A stretch of 43,592 bases of DNA, taken from positions 1,891,857-1,935,448 of the forward strand of contig CP070783.1 in the NCBI GenBank assembly GCA_020346465.1, given 5' to 3'. Position 1 is the first letter of the stretch. Each line of letters opens with the position of its first letter. Origin of the DNA: Deltaproteobacteria bacterium (GTDB taxonomy: Bacteria; Desulfobacterota; Deferrimicrobia; Deferrimicrobiales; Deferrimicrobiaceae). Under the pieces are notes generated by a model. It worked only from the letters and a program-made list of their open reading frames with translations, was not told the origin of the DNA and searched no databases. Positions 16,049-33,238 of this stretch are shown here, in pieces. The translations under genes and the position numbers were made by a program.

Positions 16049-18922
16049 ATGACCTTACGATCGAGGAAAGAGGACCTCCTTGCGCTCCCGGAAGCGTACA
16101 AGGCGTTCCATGAAGGGATCTCCCCCCCCATCCCCGCATCCCGAATTTTCTGCGATCCGTTCCGGCGGCTCGCCTTCGGCACGGACGCCAGTTTCTACCG
16201 TCTCGTCCCGAAGATCGTCGTAAAGGTGCAGACCCCCGAGGAAGTCGCGCACCTCCTGCGGACCGCGGCCCCCTTGCAGATCCCCGTCACGTTTCGCGCT
16301 GCCGGCACGAGCCTGTCCGGCCAGGCGTTGACGGATTCCGTCCTGGTGGTGCTGGCCGGAGGATGGCGGAAATGCGTTATCCATGGCAACGGGGAGAAAA
16401 TCTCGCTGGGGCCGGGGGTCATCGGAGCCGAGGCCAATGCCCGCCTGGCGCCGCACCGGCGGAAGATCGGCCCGGACCCCGCGTCGATCAATCACTGCAT
16501 GATCGGGGGGATCGCCGCCAACAACGCGAGCGGCATGTGCTGCGGAACGGCGCAGAACAGCTACCGGACCGTCGAGAGCATGAAGGTCATTCTCCACGAT
16601 GGAACCGCGCTGGACACCGGCGACCCGGACTCGCGCCGCTCCTTCCTGGCGTCCCACGCGGGGATGATCCGGGCGATCGAGGAAATCCGGGACGAGATCG
16701 CCGAAGACCCCGTTCTCCGCGAGCGGATCCGGGACAAGTTCCGCATCAAGAACACCACGGGATACAGCATCAACGCCTTCGTGGATTTCTCCGACCCCGT
16801 CGACATCCTTCTTCACTTGATGGTCGGGTCCGAGGGAACCCTGGGGTTCATTGCGGAAGTCACGTACCGGACCGTGGAGGAGCACGCGCACAATGCCTCG
16901 GCCCTGATCCTGTTCCCGGACATCGGGGACGCGTGCCGGGCGACGATCAAGCTCAAGACCGGCCCGGTATCCGCTGTCGAACTGATGGACCGCGCCTCCC
17001 TCCGGTCCGTCGAGGAGAAGGAAGGGATGCCGGCCTACCTGAAAACCCTCGGGGATTCCGCGACGGGGCTTCTCGTGGAGACCCGGGCCGGCGACGCGGA
17101 TTCCCTCGCGCGGCAGGTGGAGGAGGTCCTTGGGCTCCTTTCCGATATCCCTACCGTATTCCCTGCCGCCTTCACGGACCAGAAGGCGGAGTGCGAGAAG
17201 CTCTGGAACGTCCGGAAAGGGCTGTTCCCCGCCGTCGGGGCGGCGCGGCAGATCGGAACCACGGTGGTCATCGAGGATGTGGTGTTCCCCATCGAGACGC
17301 TCGCGGACGCGACCCTGGAGCTCGAGGGTCTGATGAAGAGGCACGGATACGACGAGGGGATCATTTTCGGCCACGCCCTGGAGGGGAACCTTCATTTCGT
17401 CTTCACGCAGGATTTCAGCGGCCCCGCGGAGGTGGCGCGCTACCAGCGGCTGATGGAAGACGTGTGCGACATGGTGGTCAGAAAGTATGACGGGTCGCTC
17501 AAGGGGGAACACGGCACGGGCCGGAACATGGCCCCCTTCGTGGAGATGGAGTGGGGGGAAAAGGCGTATGCGTTGATGAAGCGGATCCGGCGTATCTTCG
17601 ACCCGAAACACCTCCTCAACCCCGGCGTGATCCTCAACGACAACCCCCAGGTATACCTGGAAGACCTGAAGCCCCTGCCCAAGGTGCACGAGATCATCGA
17701 CAGGTGCACCGAGTGCGGGTTCTGCGAAGTCATGTGTCCCTCCAAGGACCTCACGACGACCCCGCGGCAGCGCATCGTCATCCAGCGGGAGATCTCCCGG
17801 TTGCGGGCCGGAGGCGGCGACGGGCAGGCTCGTGCCCGGTTCGAGGACGATTACGGGTACCTGGGCGAGCAGACGTGCGCGACGGACGGGTTGTGCGCCA
17901 CGACCTGCCCCGTGTCGATCAACACGGGGGAACACACGAAGGAGCTTCGTTCCCTGCAGAAAGGCCGCATCGGCCGGGACGCGGCCCGGTGGGCCGCAGG
18001 CAACTATGCAACGGTCACCGCCGGGGTCCGGGGCGGCCTTGCCGCGTTGGGAGCGGCCCGTGCGGTGCTCGGAGAGCGCGCCCTGGGTTCCGCGGCCCGG
18101 GGGCTCAGGGCCCTTTCGGGCGACCGGCTACCCCTTTGGAATTCCCGCATGCCGGGCGCGGCCCCGGCACGAACGTTCCGGAACACGTCCAACGGCTCCG
18201 ACCGCAAGGTGGTCTATTTCCCCAGCTGCATCGTGCGGGCCATGGGGCCTTCCCCGGGGGACCCGGACCAACGCGCCCTCTTCGAGGCGATTCGCTCGCT
18301 CCTCGAAAAGGGTGGGTACGAAATCCTGTACCCCCCCGGCATGGCCGGCCTGTGCTGCGGCATGCCCTTCGGAAGCAAGGGGTTCTTCGAGGAGGCCGGG
18401 CGGAAGCGCAGGGAACTCCAAGCGGCTCTTCTGGCATGCAGCCGGGATGGAGAGTACCCGGTGCTCTTCGACACGAGCCCGTGCCTCCACACGGTGAAGC
18501 AGGACCCGGACCCGCGCCTCCGGATCTACGAGCCGGTGGAGTTCATCCACTCGTTCCTCCTGGATGCCCTCGAGTTTACGAAAATCCCGGAGACGATCGC
18601 CGTGCACGTCCCGTGCAGCTCGATCAAGCTGGGGCTCCGGGAGAAGTTCCTCGCGGTGGCGGGCGCGTGTGCGGAAACGGTGGTGGTCCCCGATCATGTG
18701 GGATGCTGCGGGGTCGCCGGCGATCGCGTCTTCTTCTTCCCGGAACTCAACGAATCGGCGCTTTCCGCGCTCCGGGACGGCCTGCCGGCCGGATGCCGAT
18801 CCGGATATTCCAGCAGCCGCACCTGCGAGATCGGGCTTTCCCTGCAGAGCGGTCTGCCGTACCAGTCGATCGCCTACCTGGTCGACCGGTGCACGGCGAG
18901 GAAAAGCCGGGCTCCCGGATGA
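16049..18922 (+). CDS. dld-II: FAD- and Fe-S-containing D-2-hydroxyacid dehydrogenase (respiratory D-lactate dehydrogenase, Dld-II type)
   Basis: Membrane-associated oxidase passing electrons from a D-2-hydroxy acid, most likely D-lactate, to the respiratory chain. It has 957 residues, and the ATG at 16049 is preceded by GGGGAGG. Domain order: FAD-binding PCMH fold (about 40-270; TFRAAGTSLSGQAL, GGIAANNASGMCCG), FAD-oxidase C-terminal domain (about 270-530; HALEGNLHFVF, EHGTGRNMAPF), ferredoxin-type domain with C553-x2-C-x2-C-x3-C and C610-x5-C-x3-C-P, and two cysteine-rich CCG units (C769-C770 in GLCCGMPFG, C886-C887 in GCCGVAGD). This single-chain layout matches the Dld-II group first seen in Shewanella and is a fusion of GlcD-like and GlcF-like parts. 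Glycolate or D-2-hydroxyglutarate are alternative substrates. It is paired divergently with the MFS carrier. Confidence 0.9.
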   Translation: MTLRSRKEDLLALPEAYKAFHEGISPPIPASRIFCDPFRRLAFGTDASFYRLVPKIVVKVQTPEEVAHLLRTAAPLQIPVTFRAAGTSLSGQALTDSVLVVLAGGWRKCVIHGNGEKISLGPGVIGAEANARLAPHRRKIGPDPASINHCMIGGIAANNASGMCCGTAQNSYRTVESMKVILHDGTALDTGDPDSRRSFLASHAGMIRAIEEIRDEIAEDPVLRERIRDKFRIKNTTGYSINAFVDFSDPVDILLHLMVGSEGTLGFIAEVTYRTVEEHAHNASALILFPDIGDACRATIKLKTGPVSAVELMDRASLRSVEEKEGMPAYLKTLGDSATGLLVETRAGDADSLARQVEEVLGLLSDIPTVFPAAFTDQKAECEKLWNVRKGLFPAVGAARQIGTTVVIEDVVFPIETLADATLELEGLMKRHGYDEGIIFGHALEGNLHFVFTQDFSGPAEVARYQRLMEDVCDMVVRKYDGSLKGEHGTGRNMAPFVEMEWGEKAYALMKRIRRIFDPKHLLNPGVILNDNPQVYLEDLKPLPKVHEIIDRCTECGFCEVMCPSKDLTTTPRQRIVIQREISRLRAGGGDGQARARFEDDYGYLGEQTCATDGLCATTCPVSINTGEHTKELRSLQKGRIGRDAARWAAGNYATVTAGVRGGLAALGAARAVLGERALGSAARGLRALSGDRLPLWNSRMPGAAPARTFRNTSNGSDRKVVYFPSCIVRAMGPSPGDPDQRALFEAIRSLLEKGGYEILYPPGMAGLCCGMPFGSKGFFEEAGRKRRELQAALLACSRDGEYPVLFDTSPCLHTVKQDPDPRLRIYEPVEFIHSFLLDALEFTKIPETIAVHVPCSSIKLGLREKFLAVAGACAETVVVPDHVGCCGVAGDRVFFFPELNESALSALRDGLPAGCRSGYSSSRTCEIGLSLQSGLPYQSIAYLVDRCTARKSRAPG

Positions 18923-19829: not shown

Positions 19830-21890
19830 ATGAAAGAAGTGACATTCATCCGCCCGAGCCTGGCCCAGGAATTCACGAAAGACATCCTCACACCCGATGC
19901 GCTGAGCCGGTTTGCCGCGCTCGTCCGCACGAAGGTCGCAGACGGCCGGACCCTGGAAGAGGTCCGCCGGGACCGCGTGGAGGCCCGGCCGGCGAAGCAG
20001 GCCCGGCTGGATGCCGGCGAACCGCTCGACTTCCTTCCGGAGAACGAGGCGTTCACCTTCCTCGACGGGACCACGATGACGGTCAAGGAGATCCGCGAGG
20101 CCGACTGGAAAGTCGACGGGCAGCCGCGGCAGTTCGACGGGCGGCGCGTCCAGCTCACCGGCCCGTGCTCGGAACCCGCCATGGCGATCGGCGCGATGAA
20201 CACCGGGCAGCAGTGGATGGCGGACAGCGAGGACGCCGCCGCGCAGTCCACCGACGCCCCGTTGCGGACGCAGCGCTCCCTCAAGCTTCTCTGCACCTGG
20301 ACGCCCGAGGGCAAGCGCGCCCTCGATGGAGCAGGCGGAAAGCGCCTGAAGCCCGAAAACGAGGTGGCGATCATGATCTACCGGCCCCGGGGGCTGCACC
20401 TCGACGACCGGCACCTCCTGGTGGATGGACAGGCCGTTTCCGGCGGCTTCGTGGACGCCTGGCTGTTCCTCCGGCATAACGCGAAGGCGCTTTTGGACCG
20501 CGGCCTGCCGGTCGCCTTTTATCTTCCCAAGCTGGAGTGCGTGGAGGACGCCGACCTCTGGCACACCTTCCTGTACGAGGCGGAGAAGGCGCTGGATCTT
20601 CCCCCGGGGACGGTCAAGGTCTACGTCCTGGTGGAGATCATCAACGCCACGTATCAGCTCGAGGAGATGATGTACGCCTTCACCCGGCCGATCCGTGACG
20701 GTCGGACCGGGAAGGCCGTCCCCGCCTCCCGCTTCATCGGACCGAATGTCGGCCGCTGGGATTACATGGCAAGCATGTACCGGGCCACCCGGGCCGACCT
20801 CGCGGGCATTCCGCCCGACACGAACCTCGTGACGATGGACGGGGCCAGGTTCCTTGCGGTCTACGAACAGTACGTCTCGGACATGGCACGCAGGCGCGGC
20901 GCCGTCCCCTGGGGGGGCATGTCGGCCAACATCCTGCTCCGGGCCACCCTGCGGCCGGGGGACTTCGAAAAAATCGCGGGAAAGGAAGGTGCGCCGGCCC
21001 TGCTCGGCGCCCTTCAGGCCGCGGGGTATGTCGATCCCAAGGGGAGCGTGACCGGGAAGTTTACGCCGGGGACGGACACCCTGCCCGGCCTGCCGGCCCC
21101 CTACGAGCCGCAACGAAAGCAGATCATCGGGATCCTGGAGGCCTACGTCGCGAGGGCCTACAACAACAAGGTCGCCCTCGAGAAGGCGAGCGACGACAAA
21201 ACCCGGGAATCGGGGTTGCGGCTGGCAAAAGACGGCGGGCGCCGTTGCTACTACGGCGCCTGGGTGGCGACGCCGGACATGGTCGCCGTCATCCAGCCGG
21301 TCTTTGAGAAGGCCGCCAGGGAGGGCCTCCTGGCCGCGCTGGACACCGCTCCGACGCGGACCGACTGGTACAGCAAGGAGCTGGCCGCAGGGCTCCGGGC
21401 GTTCCCGGAAGGGCTGGTGACCGAGGACGGCATGCGGGAGGACATCACGATCACACTCCAGTACATGGCCTCCTACCTCCGGGGAAGCGCCGCCGCGGCC
21501 GTGACCAGTCCACAGCTCAAGCTGCAGCTGATGGAGGATCTGGCCACGGCGGAGATCCGCCGGGCCGCCCTGTGGAAGCGTCTGCACGCCGGGGCCGTCC
21601 TCCAGGGAGAGGGACCGTTGGCCGGAAAGCGACTGACCGAGGAGGTGTTCCTGCGGCTCCTGGACGAGGAGGCGGGAAAGCTCAAGGGCAAGTCGGTCGA
21701 TACGGCCCAGGAGATCTTGCGGTGGACGACCACCGCCAAGAAGCTCATCCCCTGGATCTCCGATCCGCTGAACGTCGTGCTGGATGAGGAAAGTCCGGAG
21801 GTGATTACCGCCGCTCTCAAGGCGTACTTCGACACGTTTGTCACGACCGGCAAGCGGCTTACCCGGGTGGCGGGAGCGGACATTCGTTAG
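19830..21890 (+). CDS. aceB: Malate synthase, long MSA-like variant
   Basis: Condenses glyoxylate with acetyl-CoA to malate in the glyoxylate shunt. The catalytic region is recognisable: RPRGLHLDDRHLLVDGQAVSG with the active-site Arg (R185/R187), FYLPKLE (E236), VLVEI (E269), NVGRWDYMASM (308-315) and RRRGAVPWGGMSA. The start at 19830 follows AAGGAGG. At 686 residues it is clearly longer than the roughly 530 of malate synthase A and does not look like the G form. The extra length lies in an insertion before GRWDY (TRPIRDGRTGKAVPASRFIGP), an N-terminal region with a TGPCSEPAMAIGAMN segment, and a long helical C-terminus (about 520-686). Isocitrate lyase lies 1.9 kb downstream on the same strand, consistent with the role. 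The fold class is certain enough; kinetics of this long form are unknown. Confidence 0.82.
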   Translation: MKEVTFIRPSLAQEFTKDILTPDALSRFAALVRTKVADGRTLEEVRRDRVEARPAKQARLDAGEPLDFLPENEAFTFLDGTTMTVKEIREADWKVDGQPRQFDGRRVQLTGPCSEPAMAIGAMNTGQQWMADSEDAAAQSTDAPLRTQRSLKLLCTWTPEGKRALDGAGGKRLKPENEVAIMIYRPRGLHLDDRHLLVDGQAVSGGFVDAWLFLRHNAKALLDRGLPVAFYLPKLECVEDADLWHTFLYEAEKALDLPPGTVKVYVLVEIINATYQLEEMMYAFTRPIRDGRTGKAVPASRFIGPNVGRWDYMASMYRATRADLAGIPPDTNLVTMDGARFLAVYEQYVSDMARRRGAVPWGGMSANILLRATLRPGDFEKIAGKEGAPALLGALQAAGYVDPKGSVTGKFTPGTDTLPGLPAPYEPQRKQIIGILEAYVARAYNNKVALEKASDDKTRESGLRLAKDGGRRCYYGAWVATPDMVAVIQPVFEKAAREGLLAALDTAPTRTDWYSKELAAGLRAFPEGLVTEDGMREDITITLQYMASYLRGSAAAAVTSPQLKLQLMEDLATAEIRRAALWKRLHAGAVLQGEGPLAGKRLTEEVFLRLLDEEAGKLKGKSVDTAQEILRWTTTAKKLIPWISDPLNVVLDEESPEVITAALKAYFDTFVTTGKRLTRVAGADIR

Positions 21891-23631: not shown

Positions 23632-23741
23632 GAATTCCCCCTGGCCGGCATCGAATAGCCACGGGTTTCCGATCCATGCGGATCAGGCCGAATGGCGGTC
23701 CTTGTCCGAAGGAATCCGGACCCGATATCCAGGAGGAAGCC

Positions 23742-25067
23742 ATGCGGGAATTCGAGAGGCGGAAACAGGAGCAAATCTCTTCACTGCTGGCATCGTGGAA
23801 GGAAGATCCGCGGTGGAAGAACGTCCGGCGACCCTACCTTGCCGAAGAAGTGGTCCGGCTCCGTGGCTCCCTCCGGGTTCATCACACGCTTGCCGAAATA
23901 GGCGCCCGGCGCTTCTGGGATCTGCTGCATTCGGAGCCCTACGTTCCCGCTCTCGGCGCCCTGACGGGCAATCAGGCGGTCCAGCAGGTGCAGGCCGGCC
24001 TCAAGGCGATCTACGTGAGCGGGTGGCAGGTGGCGGGCGACGCAAACTCGGCGGGGCACATGTACCCGGACCAGAGCCTCTATCCCGTGGACAGCGCCCC
24101 CAAGCTGATTGCCCGCATCAACAATGCGCTGACCCGCGCCGATCAGATCCAGCACATGAATGGCGGCGACCGGACCCACTGGTTCGCCCCGATTGTCGCC
24201 GATGCGGAAGCCGGATTCGGCGGCCCCTTGAATACGTTCGAGCTGATCAAGGCGATGATCGAAGCAGGAGCCGCCGCCGTCCACCTCGAGGACCAGCTTT
24301 CTTCGCTGAAGAAATGCGGCCATATGGGCGGCAAGGTCCTCGTGCCTTACCGCGGCTTCATCGAGAAACTCGTGTCGGCGAGGCTTGCCGCCGATGTGCT
24401 CGATGTGCCGACGGTGATCATTGCCCGGACCGACGCCCAGGGAGCCAATCTGATCCGGAGCGACTACGATGAGATCGACAAGCCGTTTCTCACCGGCGAG
24501 AGAACCGTCGAAGGGTATTTCCGCGTGCGGGGAGGACTCGGGTTCGCCATTGCCCGGGCGTTGGCGTATGCTCCGTATGCGGACATGATCTGGTGCGAGA
24601 CCTCCACGCCCGACCTGGGAGAAGCGAGGACGTTTGCCCAGGCGATTCACGAAAAGCACCCGGGCAAGCTGCTCGCGTACAATTGCTCCCCGTCGTTCAA
24701 CTGGAAGCGGAATCTCGACGACGCCACGATCGCCGAGTTCCAGAGCAAGCTGGGCGAGATGGGCTACAAGTTCCAGTTCGTGACGCTGGCGGGGTTCCAC
24801 TCGCTGAACGCGGGCATGTTCGAGCTCGCTCGAGGCTACAAGGAAGAGGGGATGGCCGCCTACTGCCGGCTCCAGGAACGCGAGTTCAAGCTCGAGAGAG
24901 AGCACGAGTACGCGGCGATCAAGCACCAGAGCTTTGTCGGCGCGGGATACTTCGACGCCCTGCAAATGACGATCACCGGTGGGCAGGCGTCCACCGTCGC
25001 GCTCAGGGGTTCGACGGAAGAGGAGCAGTTCGGCGGAACGGCGGGAGTCCGGAGCGTCGAACGGTAA
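23742..25067 (+). CDS. aceA: Isocitrate lyase
   Basis: Cleaves isocitrate to glyoxylate and succinate. The protein has 441 residues, close to the E. coli enzyme (434), starting at the ATG at 23742 after AGGAGG; the frame is open upstream to 23484 but this is not homologous. The catalytic loop [11 protein letters not shown] has C192 at the usual position. Other conserved segments are [44 protein letters not shown] and the [13 protein letters not shown] stretch. The C-terminal GTEEQF-like segment is present. With malate synthase (19830-21890) it completes the glyoxylate bypass for growth on C2 units. It is convergent with the LarA-like gene. Confidence 0.97.
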
Positions 25068-25078
25068 GACGGCTTCGG

Positions 25079-25097
25079 TGCCCCGAACTCAGGGGCA
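25079..25097. terminator. Hairpin between convergent aceA and the LarA-like gene
   Basis: TGCCCC-GAACTCA-GGGGCA is a perfect 6-bp stem with a 7-nt loop. The stop codon of the LarA-like gene lies in the loop. There is no T-run on either side, so a weak bidirectional terminator is the best reading. Confidence 0.4.
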
Positions 25098-26366
25098 ACG
25101 AGGGATGACGTAGGGTCCTTCGGGCACCACGGCGACGTCCGGGTCCCCGTGGGCCTTGACGCTGGCCATGACCGCCTCTTCGATCGAAGGGACGGGATCC
25201 ACGAACACGTCCTTCAGTTCCTCGTTGCCGAGTCCCGTGGTATGAAGCCGGATCGTTCCGACCCGCAAGGCCTTGATGAGCATCTCGGTCTGCCATTCGT
25301 CGATGTGCGCCTTGTCGCGGCCCGTGAGGATGGACATGAACCGGTCCGGACCCACCTCGCACAGCAGGCGCTGGGCCGCAACGAATTCCCGGCTGCCCAT
25401 ACCTTCCGAACACTCGCTGGCGATGATGATGGTGCCTCCGGGTTCCAGGATGTCGATCACGCCCACCATGCCCTTGACGGTCTGATAGTACGTCCGGTCC
25501 AGGGGATAGCCGGCGCCCGTGGTGACGATCGTCTTGAAACGACGGGGCAGAGTCACCTCCCCATGCTTTCTCATGAATGCCACCGCTTCCCGGTGACTTG
25601 CCTCGACTTCGCCGAAGTTGACGAATCCGATGCGCCGTTTCTCGTCGATGACCACATTCAAGCCCACGATGCCGCCGATCTTCCTTACGATTTCGATCTG
25701 CTCTTCGTGAAGGGGGTTGCCCTCGATGATGCAATTGGCGGACTTTTCATGTTCCAGGATATGCGCGGTGTGGAAATTCAGGATGGTGTCCTGGTAGGCC
25801 ACGCCCGGTGCGACCAGCTTGCGGCCTCCGGAATAGCCGGCCATGAAGTGGGGCTCCACCAGGCCGGTGACGATCTTCAGGTCCGCCTCCACAAACCGCC
25901 GGTCGATCAGGATCGGGATGCCCCGGGAGGTTTTCCCGAGGTCCACATGGGCTTCCCGGTCCCGGGCGAAATGGTTCTCGGCGCGGATGGTGCGGAACAG
26001 GTCGTCGGAGCCGACGATCTCGCGCAGCTCCTCCCCCTCGTTGGGGCGATGCAACCCTGTGGCGACCAGGATCAGGATGTCCTCCCGGGAAATCCCCGCG
26101 GCCGTGATCGTCTCGATGAGGGGGGGGAGCAGCGTGCCGTTGGGTACGGGCCGCGTGATATCGCAGATCAGGATGCAGGCGGTTTTCCTGCCTCGGGCCA
26201 TTTCCGCGAGGGGAGGAGATCCCACCGGTTTTTCCAAGGCACGGTTCACCGCCTGGACCGGGTTCCGGATGGGGATCATCGGGTGTTTTCGAACCACCGT
26301 GACCCGGATATCCTCCGGCAGGCGCAGGGGAATGCTGTTCCGTCCGTACAGGAGGTCGACGCTCAT
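25089..26366 (-). CDS. larA: LarA-family nickel-pincer 2-hydroxyacid racemase/epimerase
   Basis: Racemises a 2-hydroxy acid (L/D-lactate in the founding enzyme) using a nickel-pincer nucleotide bound to lysine. It has 425 residues. The key residues are all present: D69-x-T-R72 (CDITRPVPN), H106 (TGLHRP), H173 and K183 in EPHFMAGYSGGRK, and H199 (LNFHTAH). In Lactiplantibacillus LarA these are H108, H174, K184 and H200, and the internal spacings of 10 and 16 are kept. No larB, larC or larE for cofactor synthesis is in the window, so the cofactor must be made elsewhere. The gene ends a minus-strand run that also encodes Gcl-like, Fe-ADH, cupin and glycerate-kinase proteins, and lies 31 bp after a cupin. 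LarA relatives act on several 2-hydroxy acids; glycerate or lactate are the most likely here. Confidence 0.87.
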   Translation of the reverse strand: MSVDLLYGRNSIPLRLPEDIRVTVVRKHPMIPIRNPVQAVNRALEKPVGSPPLAEMARGRKTACILICDITRPVPNGTLLPPLIETITAAGISREDILILVATGLHRPNEGEELREIVGSDDLFRTIRAENHFARDREAHVDLGKTSRGIPILIDRRFVEADLKIVTGLVEPHFMAGYSGGRKLVAPGVAYQDTILNFHTAHILEHEKSANCIIEGNPLHEEQIEIVRKIGGIVGLNVVIDEKRRIGFVNFGEVEASHREAVAFMRKHGEVTLPRRFKTIVTTGAGYPLDRTYYQTVKGMVGVIDILEPGGTIIIASECSEGMGSREFVAAQRLLCEVGPDRFMSILTGRDKAHIDEWQTEMLIKALRVGTIRLHTTGLGNEELKDVFVDPVPSIEEAVMASVKAHGDPDVAVVPEGPYVIPRCP

Positions 26367-26397: not shown

Positions 26398-26757
26398 CTA
26401 ATCCTCCAACCGGGTCAGTACGCTTCCCAATCGGGAGACGTAGATGTGGGAGAACTCCGAGTCCGGGGTCGCGCCGTGCCAATGCTTCTCTCCCGGAGGA
26501 ATGAGGATGATATCCCCTTTGGTTACCACCTTCTCCTCCTTCTCGGTGGCCACGATTCCCTCTCCGGCGGTGACGATCAGGATCTGTTCGCTGTCGTGGG
26601 CATGAAACTTGTTCCGCACGCCCTTCCCGAAGTTTATCATGTTCACGCTGAACTCTTTGCTGTCGGGCACCAGGAGCTGTCTCGTCACATCCGGTCCCGT
26701 GAAGATCGGATTGGGAAAAGGCTCCCTGGATACGTCGTTCATGGAAACGATTTTCAT
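26398..26757 (-). CDS. Cupin-domain protein 1
   Basis: Single small beta-barrel (cupin_2 type), 119 residues from the ATG at 26757, with GGGAGG 5-6 nt upstream; the open frame reaches 26799. Motif 1 is NKFHAHDSEQILIVTAGEG (H-x-H-x2-E) and motif 2 is GDIILIPPGEKHWHG, together giving a probable metal site of two or three histidines and a glutamate. Unannotated cupins next to sugar- or C3-acid enzymes often act as isomerases or stabilise labile aldehydes, but no activity can be read here. It is 30 bp upstream of the LarA-like gene and 70 bp downstream of a second cupin. It may be functionally linked to the hydroxypyruvate/tartronate-semialdehyde step. Confidence 0.85.
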   Translation of the reverse strand: MKIVSMNDVSREPFPNPIFTGPDVTRQLLVPDSKEFSVNMINFGKGVRNKFHAHDSEQILIVTAGEGIVATEKEEKVVTKGDIILIPPGEKHWHGATPDSEFSHIYVSRLGSVLTRLED

Positions 26758-26827: not shown

Positions 26828-27172
26828 CTACAATATGGGAGGGCTGTGGTGCACGAAGATCCTCAAGGACACGTCGCCGGTATTTCTGATGCCGTGTTCC
26901 TCCCCCTGCGGCACGAAAATATAATCGCCGGCCTCGACGGGTTCCCATCTTCCGTTGACATAGGTTTCCCCCTTCCCCGAGACCACGAGAATGGAGTCCA
27001 CTTGCACGTCATGGCGATGGATGGGGGGGGCTTCATTCGGGGCGATATCGATCATGCAGACACTGACGGTCTCCGTGTCCTTTCCCGTAATGCAAATGGC
27101 CATTTGCACATTGGCCAACCGGGGATGCGGAGCAAATGTCATCTCCTTGCCGCGGAACAATCTGGATTTCAC
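26828..27172 (-). CDS. Cupin-domain protein 2
   Basis: Second cupin, 114 residues, read from a GTG at 27172 with AGGAGGGG about 7 nt upstream; an internal ATG (MTFAPHP) at 27142 is a weaker alternative. Motif 1 is APPIHRHDVQVDSILVVSGKG, where the usual Glu is replaced by Asp/Gln, and motif 2 is GDYIFVPQGEEHGIRN. The two histidines HRH and the later EEH could still bind a metal. It is only distantly like the neighbouring cupin, so they are probably not a recent duplication. It follows the iron-type alcohol dehydrogenase by 83 bp. No function is assigned. Confidence 0.82.
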   Translation of the reverse strand: MKSRLFRGKEMTFAPHPRLANVQMAICITGKDTETVSVCMIDIAPNEAPPIHRHDVQVDSILVVSGKGETYVNGRWEPVEAGDYIFVPQGEEHGIRNTGDVSLRIFVHHSPPIL

Positions 27173-27255: not shown

Positions 27256-28539
27256 CTACATGTTCTTGATTGTACCGAACTCGCCGGTCCAGGCGGCCTC
27301 CAGGATGGGCCTCATGTACTCTTCCACCAGATCCGCGTTGAGCGGAACCGGCATGTTCCGAAGCTTCATGTCCAGCTGCGGATTCTTGGCGGCGGTGAGA
27401 CAACGGTCGATATGTTCCCTTCCGACTCCCTTCACGTCGCTCAGGCGGGTGGGGAAATCCAGGAATTTGCTGAAATTGACCATCGCCTTGGCGACGGCCA
27501 GCCCCAGTTCCCTTCCGGACAGCGAGTCCACATCCTCCTTCGTATAGCCGTACTTCCTGTAGATGCGGCCGACCACCCGCAGTTGCTCCGGAACGGCCGG
27601 CGCAAAGAAAACGGTGTAGTAAGGATTCATCAGGGCGCAGGCCCGACCGTGGCTCAGGACGTCCACCAGGGAAAAACTGGACAGATGGGCTCCCGACGTG
27701 CCGCCGATCATGATGGCGTAGCCGCCGAGATCGGTGCCCAGCCCCAGCAGGGTCCTGGCCTCCCTGCTTTTCGCGTCCTTCTTCACTTCGATCAGGCCCT
27801 TGATGATGAGCTCGATGCCGAGCTCGGCGACCCGCTGGGCTTTTTCCCGGGCAGCCGACGGAGCCCCGAAGTAGACCTCCAGACAGTGGGCGATGCCGTC
27901 GAGCCCTCCATCCAGGGTCAGGCTCATCGGCTGGGTGGTGGTGACGTCGTAGTCGAAGACCGCGCGGGGGGGGACGATGGCCTCGTCCACGATGAGCTTC
28001 TTCTGCCCCATGACGGGATCGGTGATATTGGAATATTTGGTCAGGTGCGCGCCGGAGCTGGAAGCCATCATGACGGCCACCACCGGCATGACGGCGCGCC
28101 CCGATTTCCCGCACGCATCGGTTACCTGTCCCACCCCGAAGAACGGGTCGATTTCGGAATGGATATCCCCCAGCGTGGCCAGGACGGCGGCTGCTTTTAC
28201 GGCGTCGATCCCGGAGCCGCCATCCGCCACGACCAGAACGTCGGGTTTCTTGTGCATGATGTGACTGTGGATGCGATAGACGTCCACGAACGGGGCGTTC
28301 GGACCGGCGGACCGTACCTCCTCCACCGCATCCACCCCGGCCCTTTTCAGGGATGCAAGAATCCGTTCCCGGACGGGGCGAAACCACTCGAATTCGAGAG
28401 GCCCGACGAACAGGGCCTTCCTGCCGAATTCGGCGGCGAATTGCCCCGGCGGCAGATCCAGTACACCGCTGCCGAACGCGTACGTTTCCCCCTTGAATTC
28501 CTTCAGAATGGCGGAAGCCCGATCCTTCAATTCCGACAT
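27256..28539 (-). CDS. Iron-containing alcohol dehydrogenase family protein
   Basis: NAD(P)-dependent, metal-dependent dehydrogenase of the Fe-ADH (group III) family, 427 residues. The cofactor motif is VADGGSGIDAVK (105-115). Metal ligands are visible at D214 and H218 (GGLDGIAHCLEVYFG) and at H285 and H297 (GAHLSSFSLVDVLSHGRAC). The usual His four residues before H285 appears to be Thr281 (GGTSGAH), which differs from FucO-type enzymes and may alter metal binding. It sits 30 bp after the carboligase gene, where genomes with the standard pathway carry tartronate-semialdehyde reductase, so reduction of tartronate semialdehyde to glycerate is an attractive but unproved role. Its ribosome site is weak (GGGGAA), suggesting coupling to the upstream gene. 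Confidence 0.9.
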   Translation of the reverse strand: MSELKDRASAILKEFKGETYAFGSGVLDLPPGQFAAEFGRKALFVGPLEFEWFRPVRERILASLKRAGVDAVEEVRSAGPNAPFVDVYRIHSHIMHKKPDVLVVADGGSGIDAVKAAAVLATLGDIHSEIDPFFGVGQVTDACGKSGRAVMPVVAVMMASSSGAHLTKYSNITDPVMGQKKLIVDEAIVPPRAVFDYDVTTTQPMSLTLDGGLDGIAHCLEVYFGAPSAAREKAQRVAELGIELIIKGLIEVKKDAKSREARTLLGLGTDLGGYAIMIGGTSGAHLSSFSLVDVLSHGRACALMNPYYTVFFAPAVPEQLRVVGRIYRKYGYTKEDVDSLSGRELGLAVAKAMVNFSKFLDFPTRLSDVKGVGREHIDRCLTAAKNPQLDMKLRNMPVPLNADLVEEYMRPILEAAWTGEFGTIKNM

Positions 28540-28569
28540 GGCATTGGTTCCCCGTGTGTTTGTTATTTC

Positions 28570-30354
28570 TTATTCGAATTCCTTGATCGCGTCGATGGAG
28601 AGTCCCATGGAGGCGTCCGTCTCCCGCTCGATGATGATGTCGATGACGTACGGCACGCCCGAGTCCACGGCCCTGCGGAGGGCTGCCCTGATCTCCTTCG
28701 GGTCGGTGACCCGCTCGCCGGTGGCCCCGCAGGCCTCGGCGAACTTCACGAAGTCGAAACCGCGCCCCTGGTTCTCCGGCTCGATGCGGCCCCTGGCCGA
28801 ATCCACCATGCCCACACCGGTCGTACGGTCGGCCACCGCCAATCGGGGAAATTCCACGCTTTCCCCCTCGACCATGCTGTCGTACCAGAGCTGGACTTCG
28901 TAATCCATCTGGAAATTATATTTCGATGCCTGACGGATAAGCCCGAGATACCCGTTGTTCAGGACGACGCACACGAAAGGCACCTTGTACATGACGGCGA
29001 CGGGCAGCTCTTCCATGCAGAACTGAAACCCGTAATCCCCCACCACCTGGACCACGGTCTTGTCGGGGCGGGCGATCTTGGCCCCGATCGCCGCCGGAAG
29101 GTCCCACCCCAACGGGCCCGCTCCCCCGCAATCCAGGTAATGCCTGGGTTTGGAAATCTTCTGCAGCTGGCCGGACCAGATCTGGTTCAACCCGATGCAG
29201 GTCACGAACACGGTCTCTTCGTCGAAAAACTCGTTGATCTCCTTGAACACCCGCTGGGGCTTGATCGGAATATCGTCGTAGTCGGTCTTGCGTTCCATCC
29301 TGGCGCGGAGCTCTGCAATTTCCCGGTTCGCGGGTGCCGCCTTGACGCTGCGCCGTTTGATCTCCTCCAAAAGGGCGGACAAGGTCAGTTTGGCATCCGC
29401 ACAGATCCCCAGGTCCGGCATGATGTTTTTCCCCAGTTGGCCGGGGTCCACATCCACGTGGATGAACTTCCGGTCTCCCTTGTAGACGCCGATGGCGCCC
29501 GTGTGGCGGTCGTTGAACCGGGCGCCCACCGCCAGCACCAGGGAGGACTTAAGAAACGTCCGGTTCCCCGACTGGGTATTGCACTGGATCCCCACCTGGC
29601 CGGCCATGAGAGGGTGGTCCCACGGGATTCCGCCTTTTCCCATGAACGAAGAGACAACCGGGATCTGCAGGATCTCGGCGATTTTGACGAATTCCTCGCA
29701 GGCGTCGGCCATAATCACGCCTCCCCCCAGCAGCATGAGAGGCCTTTCCGCCGCAAGCAGCATATCCACCGCCTTGGAAACCTGCTTCGGGTCGGGAGGG
29801 GTGCGGAAGATGGGCAGCCGCGGATCCGTCTCGGGATCGTATTCGATTTCCCCCCGCTGGACGTCCAGGGGCAAGTCGACAAGAACCGGGCCGGGTCGTC
29901 CCTCCTTCATGATCCGGAACGCCTCCCGGAATACCCACGGCACCATGGCCGGCTCCTGCACGCAGTACGACTTCTTGGTGACCGGCTTCACGATGGCGGC
30001 GATGTCCACCGCCTGGAAGGCTTCCCGGCCCAGCTGCGCTTTTACGTTCTGGCCGGTAATCGCCAGAACCGGGATCGAATCCACCTGGGCGGTATAGAGC
30101 CCCGTCACGAAGTTGCTCGCCCCGGGGCCCGAGGTGGCCACGCATACCCCCACCGTGCCGATGGCGCGCGCGTACCCGTCGGCCATGTGGATCGCACCCT
30201 CCTCGTGGCGGCAAAGATAGTGACGGATCGTCCCCAGGTCCTTCAGGGAACGGTAAAACGGGAGGATCCCGGCTCCCGGGATGCCGAAAATGTGTTTGAC
30301 CCCTTCGCTTTCCAGGATCTTGACGGCGGCGTTCATGGCGGTCATCTTGGGCAT
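28570..30354 (-). CDS. gcl: Glyoxylate carboligase (tartronate-semialdehyde synthase) family ThDP enzyme, Glu51 variant
   Basis: Predicted to join two glyoxylates into tartronate semialdehyde plus CO2. It has 594 residues from the ATG at 30354 (AAGGAG 8 nt upstream), against 593 for E. coli Gcl, and the sequences run in register. Shared features include KMTAMNAAVKILESEGV, the ADSIP-like QVDSIPVLAITGQ, REAFQAVDIAAIVKPV, GRPGPVLVDLP, IPIKPQRVFKEIN, GGAGPLGWDLPAAIG, VLNNGYLGLIRQ, DYEVQLWY and the C-terminal MGLSIDAIKEFE. The ThDP loop is GDYGFQF...NN. The odd point is residue 51: E. coli Gcl has Val (ARHVEGA), unusual among ThDP enzymes, while this protein has Glu (CRHEEGA) like acetolactate synthases. 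The remainder favours Gcl over acetolactate synthase. Confidence 0.85.
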   Translation of the reverse strand: MPKMTAMNAAVKILESEGVKHIFGIPGAGILPFYRSLKDLGTIRHYLCRHEEGAIHMADGYARAIGTVGVCVATSGPGASNFVTGLYTAQVDSIPVLAITGQNVKAQLGREAFQAVDIAAIVKPVTKKSYCVQEPAMVPWVFREAFRIMKEGRPGPVLVDLPLDVQRGEIEYDPETDPRLPIFRTPPDPKQVSKAVDMLLAAERPLMLLGGGVIMADACEEFVKIAEILQIPVVSSFMGKGGIPWDHPLMAGQVGIQCNTQSGNRTFLKSSLVLAVGARFNDRHTGAIGVYKGDRKFIHVDVDPGQLGKNIMPDLGICADAKLTLSALLEEIKRRSVKAAPANREIAELRARMERKTDYDDIPIKPQRVFKEINEFFDEETVFVTCIGLNQIWSGQLQKISKPRHYLDCGGAGPLGWDLPAAIGAKIARPDKTVVQVVGDYGFQFCMEELPVAVMYKVPFVCVVLNNGYLGLIRQASKYNFQMDYEVQLWYDSMVEGESVEFPRLAVADRTTGVGMVDSARGRIEPENQGRGFDFVKFAEACGATGERVTDPKEIRAALRRAVDSGVPYVIDIIIERETDASMGLSIDAIKEFE

Positions 30355-30424
30355 GGGCCTGCTCCTTCCTCCGGAATTTCGCCGAGGCACAATAAAGATC
30401 GTTCATCCTTGTTGAATCGATTCC

Positions 30425-30453
30425 ATCCTAAGGCATTCGAGGGGTCGCGCCAA
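30425..30453 (-). promoter_or_regulatory. Candidate sigma70 promoter for gcl
   Basis: On the minus strand TTGGCG (30448-30453) and TAGGAT (30425-30430) are separated by 17 nt, about 70 nt upstream of the gcl start and inside the 294-bp gap behind the glycerate kinase. Each matches 4 of 6 bases. It implies that gcl and the genes downstream can be transcribed separately from the aminotransferase-kinase pair. Confidence 0.35.
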
Positions 30454-30648
30454 ACAGAGAATTGGCCCGTCCCGGTTCCCGTGGGATGGGACGAAGTGCT
30501 GCGTTCCGTAAATACGGTCCCGTACCGGGGCAATGTCCGGGGGCGTTTTCCCTTCCGATGCCAGGGCTCGCGGGGGGCTTCCTATTCGCTGCGCCCCTTG
30601 CACCGGGAGGCACGCACAAAGATGTTGCCGTATTTTGGAAATGGACCG

Positions 30649-31992
30649 CTAAGTACGAACGACGATTCCGATGGCGATGTCGGTGACGTTGGTGCCGGTC
30701 GGCCCGGTGACAATATGATCCGACAGCGCCTGGAAGAAGGGGTAGGCGTCGTTCCGGTCCAGGTGATTCGCGGGGGAGAGTGCATGCGCGGCGGCGCGGG
30801 AGCAGGTCGTGCCGTCGGCGAAAGCGCCCGCGCAGTCCGTGGGACCGTCGATGCCGTCCGTCCCGCACGACAGGACCGCCATCCCCGGCAGCCCGTCCAT
30901 CTCGACGGCCGCGGAGAGGACGAATTCCTGGTTCCTGCCTCCTTTCCCCTTCCCGCGCACCGTGACCGTCGTCTCCCCCCCGGCGATCAGGGCGACGGTT
31001 TTGCCCGGCGAAGCGGACTCTTGCGCCGTGCGCAGCACCTTGATGAACGCACACGCGCATTCGCGGGCCTCCCCCCGGAGAAATCCCGGAAGGATGCGGA
31101 CGGTGTCCACTCCCCCCTTCCTCGCGGCGTCGGCCGCCGCGTCGATCGCGACCCGGTTCGATCCGATGACGGCGAGGGAAACACGCTCGAGGACGGGATC
31201 CCCCGGCTTCGGGGTTTCCGGGATCCTCCCCGAGGCCCCGGCCTCGATGTGCGCCCTTACGGCATCCGGGATCGCATCGTACAGGGTTCGTTCGACGAGG
31301 ACCTTCCTCGCGTCGCCGTAGGTCGCCGGATCGGGGGAGAACGGGCCGGAGGCGATGACGGAGGGGTCGTCGCCGGGAACGTCGGACAGCATGAGCGCCC
31401 ACACCCTGGCGGGATGCGCGGCCTGCGCCAACCGGCCTCCCTTGACGCGGGAGAGGTGTTTTCGGACCGTGTTGAACTCGGTGATGTCCGCTCCCGACCG
31501 CAGCAACAGCCGGAACACCTCCTCCTTGTCCGAGGAAGAGACTCCCTCGGGAGGAGCGGAAATCATCGCGGAGCCGCCGCCGGAGATCAGGGCGATCACC
31601 AGGTCCTTCTCTCCTGCCCGGGAAACCAGGTCCAGCATTGCCCGCGCGGCCTCCCGGCTTCCCTCGTCGGGGAGAGGGTGCCCCGATTCGATGAGCCGAA
31701 CGGCGTCCAGGGACCCTCCCTCCCCCTTCGGGACCGCGATCGCCCCCGCGGCGACCTTCCCCGCGAGCGCCGCGGCCGCGGCCTGCGCCATGGGGCGGCC
31801 GGCTTTCCCGCCGCCCACGAGAAAAATCCGCTCGACGGAGGACCACGGGAGGATCGAGCTCGCGCCGCCGCCGGATAGGGCGATCCCTTCCAAGTCCCGC
31901 CGGAGGGCCACCCGGACCAGGCGCGCGGGGTCCACGGAGGCAACCGCCTCCAGAAAGAGGTTCGTAAGGAGCGATCTGGCCGGAACCATCAT
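30649..31992 (-). CDS. gckA: Glycerate 2-kinase (GckA/MOFRL family)
   Basis: Phosphorylates D-glycerate to 2-phosphoglycerate. It has 447 residues from the ATG at 31992 (AAGGGAG upstream); the longer open frame to 32199 overlaps the aminotransferase and is spurious. The DUF4147 part (about 1-240) contains FLVGGGKAGRPMAQA, LISGGGSAMISAPP, HLSRVKGGRLAQAA and LSDVPGDDPSVIASGPFSPD. The C-terminal MOFRL domain contains AGGETTVTVRGKGKGGRNQEF and CGTDGIDGPTDCAGAF. It follows the serine-glyoxylate aminotransferase by 58 bp on the same strand, the classical serine-cycle pairing. It would receive glycerate from both the carboligase branch and the hydroxypyruvate reductase. Confidence 0.95.
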   Translation of the reverse strand: MMVPARSLLTNLFLEAVASVDPARLVRVALRRDLEGIALSGGGASSILPWSSVERIFLVGGGKAGRPMAQAAAAALAGKVAAGAIAVPKGEGGSLDAVRLIESGHPLPDEGSREAARAMLDLVSRAGEKDLVIALISGGGSAMISAPPEGVSSSDKEEVFRLLLRSGADITEFNTVRKHLSRVKGGRLAQAAHPARVWALMLSDVPGDDPSVIASGPFSPDPATYGDARKVLVERTLYDAIPDAVRAHIEAGASGRIPETPKPGDPVLERVSLAVIGSNRVAIDAAADAARKGGVDTVRILPGFLRGEARECACAFIKVLRTAQESASPGKTVALIAGGETTVTVRGKGKGGRNQEFVLSAAVEMDGLPGMAVLSCGTDGIDGPTDCAGAFADGTTCSRAAAHALSPANHLDRNDAYPFFQALSDHIVTGPTGTNVTDIAIGIVVRT

Positions 31993-32050: not shown

Positions 32051-33238
32051 CTAGCGGCCGACGTTCCCTTTCCGGGCGCATTGCAGATACTCGAGGGCTT
32101 CCGCCACGCCTCCTTTCGAACAGGGGACGCCGGCGAGGGCGAGACCCATTTCCACGCCGGAAAGGGTTCCGGCGAGCATGAGATCGTTGAAATCGCCAAG
32201 GTGGCCGATGCGGAACACCTTCCCTTTGACCTTTCCCAATCCGGTGCCCAGGGACAGGTTGAAGTTCTCCAGGATCACCCCACGCAGATCGTCTGCATCA
32301 TGTCCCTCCGGCATCAGGACCGCAGTAAGGGAGCTGCTGTATTCTTCGGGGTCGGCACAAAGGATTTCGAGTCCCCATGCCCGCACGGCCCGCCGCGTCG
32401 CCTCGGCGTGGCGATCGTGGCGGGCGAAGACGTTGTCGAGCCCTTCCTCCTCCAACAGATGAATGGCTTCGCGTAAACCGTAGAGCAGATTGGTGGGGGG
32501 CGTGTAGGGAAAAAAGCCGGATTTGCCGGCCGAGAGGATCGGCTCCCAGGCCCAATACGATTTCTTCATCCTTGCCGACTTCGATGCCCGGCGCGCCTTT
32601 TCGCTGACGGCGTTCAGGCCGAGGCCGGGCGGCATCATCAGCCCTTTCTGGGAGCACCCTACGGTCACGTCGATTCCCCACTCGTCATGACGATAGTCGG
32701 TGGATGCGAGGGAGGAAATCGTGTCGACCAGGAGCAAAGACGGATGCCCTGCGCGATCGATGGCTTTCCGGATTTCGGATACCCGGGTGGTGACCCCGGT
32801 GGAGGTTTCGTTGTGGACGACCGCAACGGCCTTGATCGCGTGCGCCCGGTCTTCCCCGAGCGTTTTCTCGACGGTCTTCGCATCGACGCCGTGCCGCCAA
32901 TCCCCGGGGAGGAAATCGACCACCAGGCCGAGTTCCGCCGCCAGATTTCGCCAGAGTGTCGCAAAATGCCCGGTTTCGACCATCAGGATCCTGTCCCCGG
33001 GCGAGAGGGTGTTGACGAGTGCCGCCTCCCAGGCGCCGGTGCCGGAAGAGGGGAAGATGAGGACGGGGCCGGAAGTGTGAACGATCCTCTGGAGACCTTC
33101 CAGGATCTCCAACGAGAGCCGGGCGAATTCGGGACCGCGATGATCGATGGTCGGCCGGCTCAGGGCGCGCAGAACCCGGTCCGGAATATTCGTGGGACCG
33201 GGAATTTGAAGGAAATGACGTCCGCCTTGAAAAGCCAT
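32051..33238 (-). CDS. sgaA: Serine-glyoxylate aminotransferase (class V)
   Basis: PLP-dependent transfer of the amino group from serine (or alanine) to glyoxylate, giving glycine and hydroxypyruvate (or pyruvate). It has 395 residues; the ATG at 33238 follows GGGAGG. The N-terminal GRHFLQIPGPTNIPDRVL and RPTIDHRGPEFA segments are typical of the SgaA/AGT group. The PLP lysine is K198 in VGCSQKGLMMPPGL, with D172 (LLVDTISSL) as the cofactor aspartate. C-terminal FRIGHLGDFND carries the substrate-binding Arg. It is the first gene of a minus-strand run that continues with glycerate 2-kinase. A 12-bp palindrome lies about 30 nt upstream. Confidence 0.94.
   Translation of the reverse strand: MAFQGGRHFLQIPGPTNIPDRVLRALSRPTIDHRGPEFARLSLEILEGLQRIVHTSGPVLIFPSSGTGAWEAALVNTLSPGDRILMVETGHFATLWRNLAAELGLVVDFLPGDWRHGVDAKTVEKTLGEDRAHAIKAVAVVHNETSTGVTTRVSEIRKAIDRAGHPSLLLVDTISSLASTDYRHDEWGIDVTVGCSQKGLMMPPGLGLNAVSEKARRASKSARMKKSYWAWEPILSAGKSGFFPYTPPTNLLYGLREAIHLLEEEGLDNVFARHDRHAEATRRAVRAWGLEILCADPEEYSSSLTAVLMPEGHDADDLRGVILENFNLSLGTGLGKVKGKVFRIGHLGDFNDLMLAGTLSGVEMGLALAGVPCSKGGVAEALEYLQCARKGNVGR

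Follow-up and report, generated by a model that had tools for sequence, protein, structure and literature searches.

A glyoxylate carboligase-type enzyme with the ordinary ThDP glutamate belongs to a broad Glu51 lineage in which Val51 probably arose once

Introduction

Enzymes using thiamine diphosphate (ThDP) need a glutamate that interacts with N1' of the cofactor, and glyoxylate carboligase (Gcl) is the standard exception to this rule. A glutamate at position 51 (E. coli Gcl numbering) is in itself ordinary for a ThDP enzyme. In Gcl the position is occupied by Val51, a residue said to typify the whole Gcl family (PMC3534367). The window, i.e. the whole stretch of 43,592 nucleotides of a deltaproteobacterial genome analysed here, contains a gene whose product resembles Gcl and carries Glu51. 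A preliminary description of this DNA proposed either an ancestral-like Gcl whose cofactor is activated by glutamate in the ordinary way or an enzyme derived from Gcl that has other partners. Here we ask which of these readings fits the protein, its relatives and its genomic surroundings.

Results

The window gene encodes a Gcl-type protein with Glu51

The open reading frame encodes 594 amino acids without internal stop codons and contains the motif RHEEGA at residues 49-54 (Table 1). The ATG at position 30354 is a plausible start because it is preceded by a strong ribosome-binding sequence, GGAGGAAGGAG, and around position 51 every residue of the protein has the same number as its counterpart in E. 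coli Gcl. Translation and alignment thus confirm both the glutamate (HEEGA, codon GAG) and its position as counted from this ATG in the preliminary description. The same description had the protein aligning end to end with E. coli Gcl and sharing its C-terminal EFE ending. The two proteins are indeed co-linear over the full length with 47% identity, and MGLSIDAIKEFE of the window protein aligns to MGSELDNVMEFE of E. coli Gcl, but the alignment is interrupted by a single gap around residue 65, and the window protein has ~30 additional residues at ~494-527 that happen to make up the total length again. This insertion is confined to the branch of the window protein, where 12 of the aligned sequences have it. 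Its sequence varies, and it sits in a loop of low confidence that follows the cofactor-binding region.

We excluded a sequencing error or a wrong start as the origin of Glu51, as relatives from the same genus and the same family (80-88% identity) share the residue and both the codon and the ribosome-binding sequence were checked. A long open reading frame on the plus strand (27412..31878) overlaps the gene and resembles the antisense frames of high-GC genes.

Pfam identified three ThDP-enzyme domains in the window protein. Among the NCBIfam models the two Gcl equivalogs score highest, but each stays under its cut-off (753.8 of 791 and 637.1 of 711.2 bits). The nearest solved structures in a sequence search were those of E. 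coli and Deinococcus Gcl (556-558 bits), with the best acetolactate synthase structure reaching 337 bits; oxalyl-CoA decarboxylase was rejected as identity of the protein, its match to solved structures giving at most 185 bits. A fold model with a mean pLDDT of 81 had E. coli Gcl as best structural match (TM 0.88), and the Gcl structures from E. coli and Deinococcus ranked above all acetolactate synthases. With Glu in place of Val51 and scores below the curated cut-offs, the window protein is a member of a wider Gcl-type clade, not a canonical Gcl.

Table 1. Features of the window that bear on the Gcl-type gene
Feature	Position	Strand	Basis
GlcD-type FAD oxidase fused to Fe-S/CCG part, 957 residues, possible 2-hydroxyacid (glycolate) dehydrogenase	16049..18922	+	profile scans
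Malate synthase, divergent, glyoxylate sink	19830..21890	+	TIGR01344 (malate synthase A), 283 of 594.5 bits
Isocitrate lyase, glyoxylate source	23724..25067	+	above two isocitrate lyase cut-offs
LarA-type nickel-pincer 2-hydroxyacid racemase	25089..26366	-	profile scans; closest to broad-spectrum LarA
Small cupin protein	26398..26757	-	Cupin_2
Small cupin-like protein	26828..27142	-	direct reading of sequence
Iron-containing alcohol dehydrogenase, candidate tartronate-semialdehyde reductase	27256..28539	-	domain/profile scans
Gcl-type ThDP enzyme, 594 aa, Glu51	28570..30354	-	translation, profile scans, alignment
Subclade-specific insertion, residues ~494-527	28774..28875	-	alignment, low-confidence region of fold model
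Codon 51, GAG (Glu), position of Val51 in E. coli Gcl	30202..30204	-	translation, alignment
Glycerate 2-kinase, DUF4147/MOFRL type, start approximate	30649..31992	-	best solved match glycerate kinase 2b8n, 7e-84
Class V aminotransferase, serine-/alanine-/aspartate-glyoxylate type	32051..33238	-	BhcA model, 438.8 of 650 bits

Glu51 is universal outside a narrow Val51 family

Relatives were collected from named genome contigs, plasmid records and whole-genome samples of three phyla, namely the phylum of the window (297), that of a chloroflexus (350) and that of an actinobacterium (396). The joint alignment comprised 105 different sequences, 98 of them Gcl-type and the remainder acetolactate synthase-like outgroups. 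All 27 sequences with at least 69% identity to E. coli Gcl carry Val51, all 71 Gcl-type sequences with 43-56% identity carry Glu51, and none of the 105 sequences has a residue other than Glu or Val there. Carriers of Glu51 come from Deltaproteobacteria, Actinobacteria, Chloroflexi, Planctomycetota, Methylomirabilota, Poribacteria and archaea (Bathyarchaeota, Borrarchaeum). The preliminary description had counted a Glu51 that is common in the family against its own proposal; the residue turned out to be a constant feature of the wider Gcl-type clade that the narrow Val51 clade lacks, which renders the window protein less unusual as a sequence and the evolutionary point stronger.

Of the 15 genomes that were searched whole, 13 yielded the Glu51 protein but no Val51-type Gcl, an absence that is provisional as some assemblies are drafts, and the other two genomes have both types. 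In Actinobacteria and Chloroflexi the Glu51 protein is frequently the sole Gcl detected per genome. Nonomuraea cypriaca and Sphaerisporangium perillae each encode a Val51 Gcl and a Glu51 homologue (L077 with L093 and L078 with L092, respectively), and these organisms offer a natural within-cell comparison of the two forms. An actinobacterial metagenome-assembled genome carries two Glu51 Gcl-type genes in tandem (L030, 557-5465).

Two Glu51 relatives (L050 and L134) score above both NCBIfam Gcl cut-offs and a third (L033) above one. The cut-off of TIGR01504, 711.2 bits, falls inside the score range of the Glu51 proteins (~565-830) and splits the group, so that Glu51 genes are likely to be named inconsistently. 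Among open-access papers we found none that describes Glu51 forms of Gcl, and they may have been noticed earlier elsewhere. On this evidence, the statement that Val51 marks the entire family (PMC3534367) holds for the narrow family only and needs a qualifier.

Val51 enzymes form one clade inside a Glu51 grade

A tree was calculated with IQ-TREE from an alignment in which X stood in for residue 51, the acetolactate synthases serving as outgroup; quick and careful runs agreed. The Gcl-type clade, window protein included, is separated from the acetolactate synthases at 100/100, i.e. the placement among the latter that the preliminary description had named as counter-evidence was not observed. The Val51 enzymes form a single clade (100/100) that is nested inside a grade of Glu51 proteins. 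Its sister, joined at 100/100, is a Glu51 protein (L121, the same gene as in L134), and both together lie inside the actinobacterial/chloroflexi Glu51 lineages (100/98), which in turn join a Methylomirabilota Glu51 lineage (100/100). The tree needs one change of state at residue 51, and since Val51 is one clade nested in a Glu51 grade, the simplest reading is that Glu51 is the ancestral state and disappeared a single time. This topology favours the ancestral-like Gcl of the preliminary description.

A single clade of all Glu51 sequences was recovered in no bootstrap tree and was disfavoured by the AU test with p = 0.039, a value that is only just significant, so the test is supportive of the grade but not overwhelming. 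The branches leading to the outgroup are long, which is a known weakness.

The Gcl pocket is shared by Glu51 and Val51 proteins

Residues R284, H285, T286, G287, I393, L395, L421, L478 and I479 (E. coli numbering) are common to Glu51 and Val51 proteins (94-100%), whereas the outgroups in the joint alignment differ at H285, I393, L395, L421 and L478. The window protein has the Gcl pocket residues R284, I393, L421, L478 and I479. I393 is backed as active-site position by the structure of an I393A mutant among the fold matches, and R284, L421, L478 and I479 are residues that we take to line the pocket as well. The positions that change along with residue 51 include three of note: position 82 is Asn in all Glu51 proteins and Asp in the Val51 enzymes, position 283 is Asp or Glu in the Glu51 proteins, Ser in the intermediate between the groups and Asn in the Val51 enzymes, and position 448 is Gly or Ser in the Glu51 proteins and Asp in the Val51 enzymes. 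These changes may compensate for the lost glutamate.

Glu51 genes of other branches often lie in gcl-type settings

For neighbourhood counts loci were grouped by the tree, not by their neighbours, and genes within 6 kb were counted as neighbours. In the actinobacterial/chloroflexi lineages 34 of 41 Glu51 genes have glxR or hyi within this distance, and several of these loci also contain genes for a glycerate kinase, an IclR regulator and an allantoate amidohydrolase. In the lineage that is sister to the Val51 clade glxR neighbours the Glu51 gene in both loci (2/2). Single cases are an allantoinase gene in L140 and genes for xanthine dehydrogenase and urate oxidase in L136.

The window gene has a different neighbourhood

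The genes for the aminotransferase, glycerate 2-kinase, Gcl-type protein, iron-containing alcohol dehydrogenase (Fe-ADH), two cupins and LarA follow each other on the minus strand of the window, the Fe-ADH gene beginning 30 bp downstream of the Gcl-type gene. The best solved match of the aminotransferase is serine-glyoxylate aminotransferase (6pk1, 9e-110). GlxR is encoded elsewhere in the genome (C1:840347-841219, 437 bits at a cut-off of 340.75), so that, together with the kinase beside the Gcl-type gene, a route from glyoxylate via glycerate to 2-phosphoglycerate is complete on paper. The gene for LarC, a maturation protein for the nickel-pincer cofactor, lies ~17 kb outside the window, and the LarA neighbour could interconvert L- and D-glycerate. 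From the position of the Fe-ADH gene we guess that its product is a second, unrelated tartronate-semialdehyde reductase. Genes for an Fe-ADH that is 59-89% identical to that of the window also lie near the Glu51 gene in loci L005-L010, L012, L013, L015, L046 and L047.

Among 20 loci of the window's branch an Fe-ADH gene is nearby in 13, an IclR gene in 11, a LarA gene in 8 and glxR in only one, which means that the strong operon argument for Gcl function is borrowed from another branch. The counts for Fe-ADH, LarA and glxR, together with the branch-specific insertion after the cofactor-binding loop, speak for a form of the second option of the preliminary description in which the deltaproteobacterial branch would be a Gcl-derived carboligase with another donor/acceptor pair, its product being reduced by the Fe-ADH and racemised by the LarA-type enzyme, and glyoxylate carboligation would be confined to the actinobacterial/chloroflexi branch. 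The pocket residues of the window's branch are, however, those of Gcl, and the window gene is surrounded by genes for glycerate 2-kinase, a glyoxylate aminotransferase, malate synthase and isocitrate lyase. Moreover, genes for a GlcD-type glycolate oxidase adjoin the Glu51 gene in two relatives (L046 and L153), and the genome of the window has its own GlxR. We thus consider different partners unlikely, if the most serious of the alternatives; what stands of this option is that in the window's branch an Fe-type alcohol dehydrogenase takes the place of the expected glxR.

An acetolactate synthase, or some other ThDP enzyme that uses pyruvate and only looks like Gcl, is a very improbable identity for the window protein. 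Glu51 is the residue found in acetolactate synthases, and the protein reaches 517.5 of 538.35 bits with the acetolactate synthase model TIGR00118. Yet its best sequence and fold matches are Gcl enzymes, the tree groups it with Gcl at 100/100, the alignment places Ala at the position of the herbicide-site Trp, and the genome encodes a separate, bona fide biosynthetic acetolactate synthase (853 bits with TIGR00118) that is 39% identical to the window protein. A reversion from Val51 to Glu51 in a few lineages, for which point changes would suffice, has the least to recommend it, given that none of the 71 Glu51 sequences falls within the Val51 clade and that Glu is the residue of the outgroup as well.

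Discussion

With the residue, its distribution, the tree, the neighbourhoods, the shared pocket and the predicted Gcl fold in hand, we regard the window gene as that of an ancestral-type glyoxylate carboligase (tartronate-semialdehyde synthase) with ordinary glutamate activation of ThDP, from whose Glu51 lineage the Val51 enzymes would have arisen once; judged from sequence, we put the probability of this reading at roughly 0.7. Somewhat less secure, although still probable, is the wider generalisation that a broad and so far unremarked Glu51 lineage represents the ancestral form of Gcl, and that the glutamate was lost a single time, inside a pathway already using tartronate semialdehyde, together with the charge changes Asn82 to Asp, Asp/Ser283 to Asn and Gly/Ser448 to Asp (E. 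coli numbering).

In the following scheme we infer what the window enzyme acts on and makes, which reductase follows it and how it activates ThDP. Glu51 of one subunit would hydrogen-bond N1' of the aminopyrimidine, promoting the 1',4'-imino tautomer and thereby the C2 ylide. The ylide would attack glyoxylate, CO2 would leave, and the resulting enamine would react with another glyoxylate molecule, yielding tartronate semialdehyde. The latter could be reduced to glycerate by the GlxR encoded elsewhere in the genome, by the adjacent Fe-ADH or by both, and glycerate would be phosphorylated by the adjacent glycerate 2-kinase. Val51 enzymes such as E. coli Gcl would have arisen once, at a time when the Glu51 lineage already served in a pathway of the gcl-glxR type. 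The V51E variant of E. coli Gcl is reportedly less active in the overall reaction, and for this reason an enzyme with Glu51 may be adapted to a different task. Most likely the window protein acts as Gcl does, but with the usual activation by glutamate.

If this is true, a natural Glu51 lineage combining the Gcl pocket with, in Actinobacteria, the Gcl operon would mean that Gcl chemistry does not require loss of the glutamate, and nature would provide enzyme pairs in which the cost and the benefit of that loss can be measured. The sister of all Val51 enzymes (L133/L134) is a living near-intermediate, with Glu51, Ser283 and a position directly upstream of glxR, which opens the transition to experiment. 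To specialists, a single loss with a natural intermediate should be useful. The Glu51 branch is widespread and probably the older part of the Gcl family.

Compared with canonical Gcl (E. coli, 2pan and 8i01; Deinococcus metallilatus, 7ct6), the window protein is alike in fold, length, pocket and C-terminal EFE, and the hyi-glxR-gcl setting is common to sister lineages of its branch. It departs from canonical Gcl at positions 51 (Glu for Val), 82 (Asn for Asp), 283 (Asp for Asn) and 448 (Gly for Asp), in the insertion at ~494-527 and in the Fe-ADH gene next door in place of glxR. IlvB, the large subunit of acetohydroxyacid synthase, shares the three-domain ThDP fold and Glu51 with the window protein, but has other pocket residues and forms a separate clade. 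Oxalyl-CoA decarboxylase and 2-hydroxyacyl-CoA lyase, which also have Glu51, belong to the same superfamily, but are far weaker matches. The purine and allantoin genes of L140 and L136 resemble the allantoin setting of E. coli gcl. In the gcl-hyi-glxR cluster known from E. coli and Pseudomonas, the place of gcl is taken by Glu51 proteins in Actinobacteria and Chloroflexi, so the difference there is residue 51, whereas the typical order in Deltaproteobacteria is IclR - gcl - Fe-ADH - LarA.
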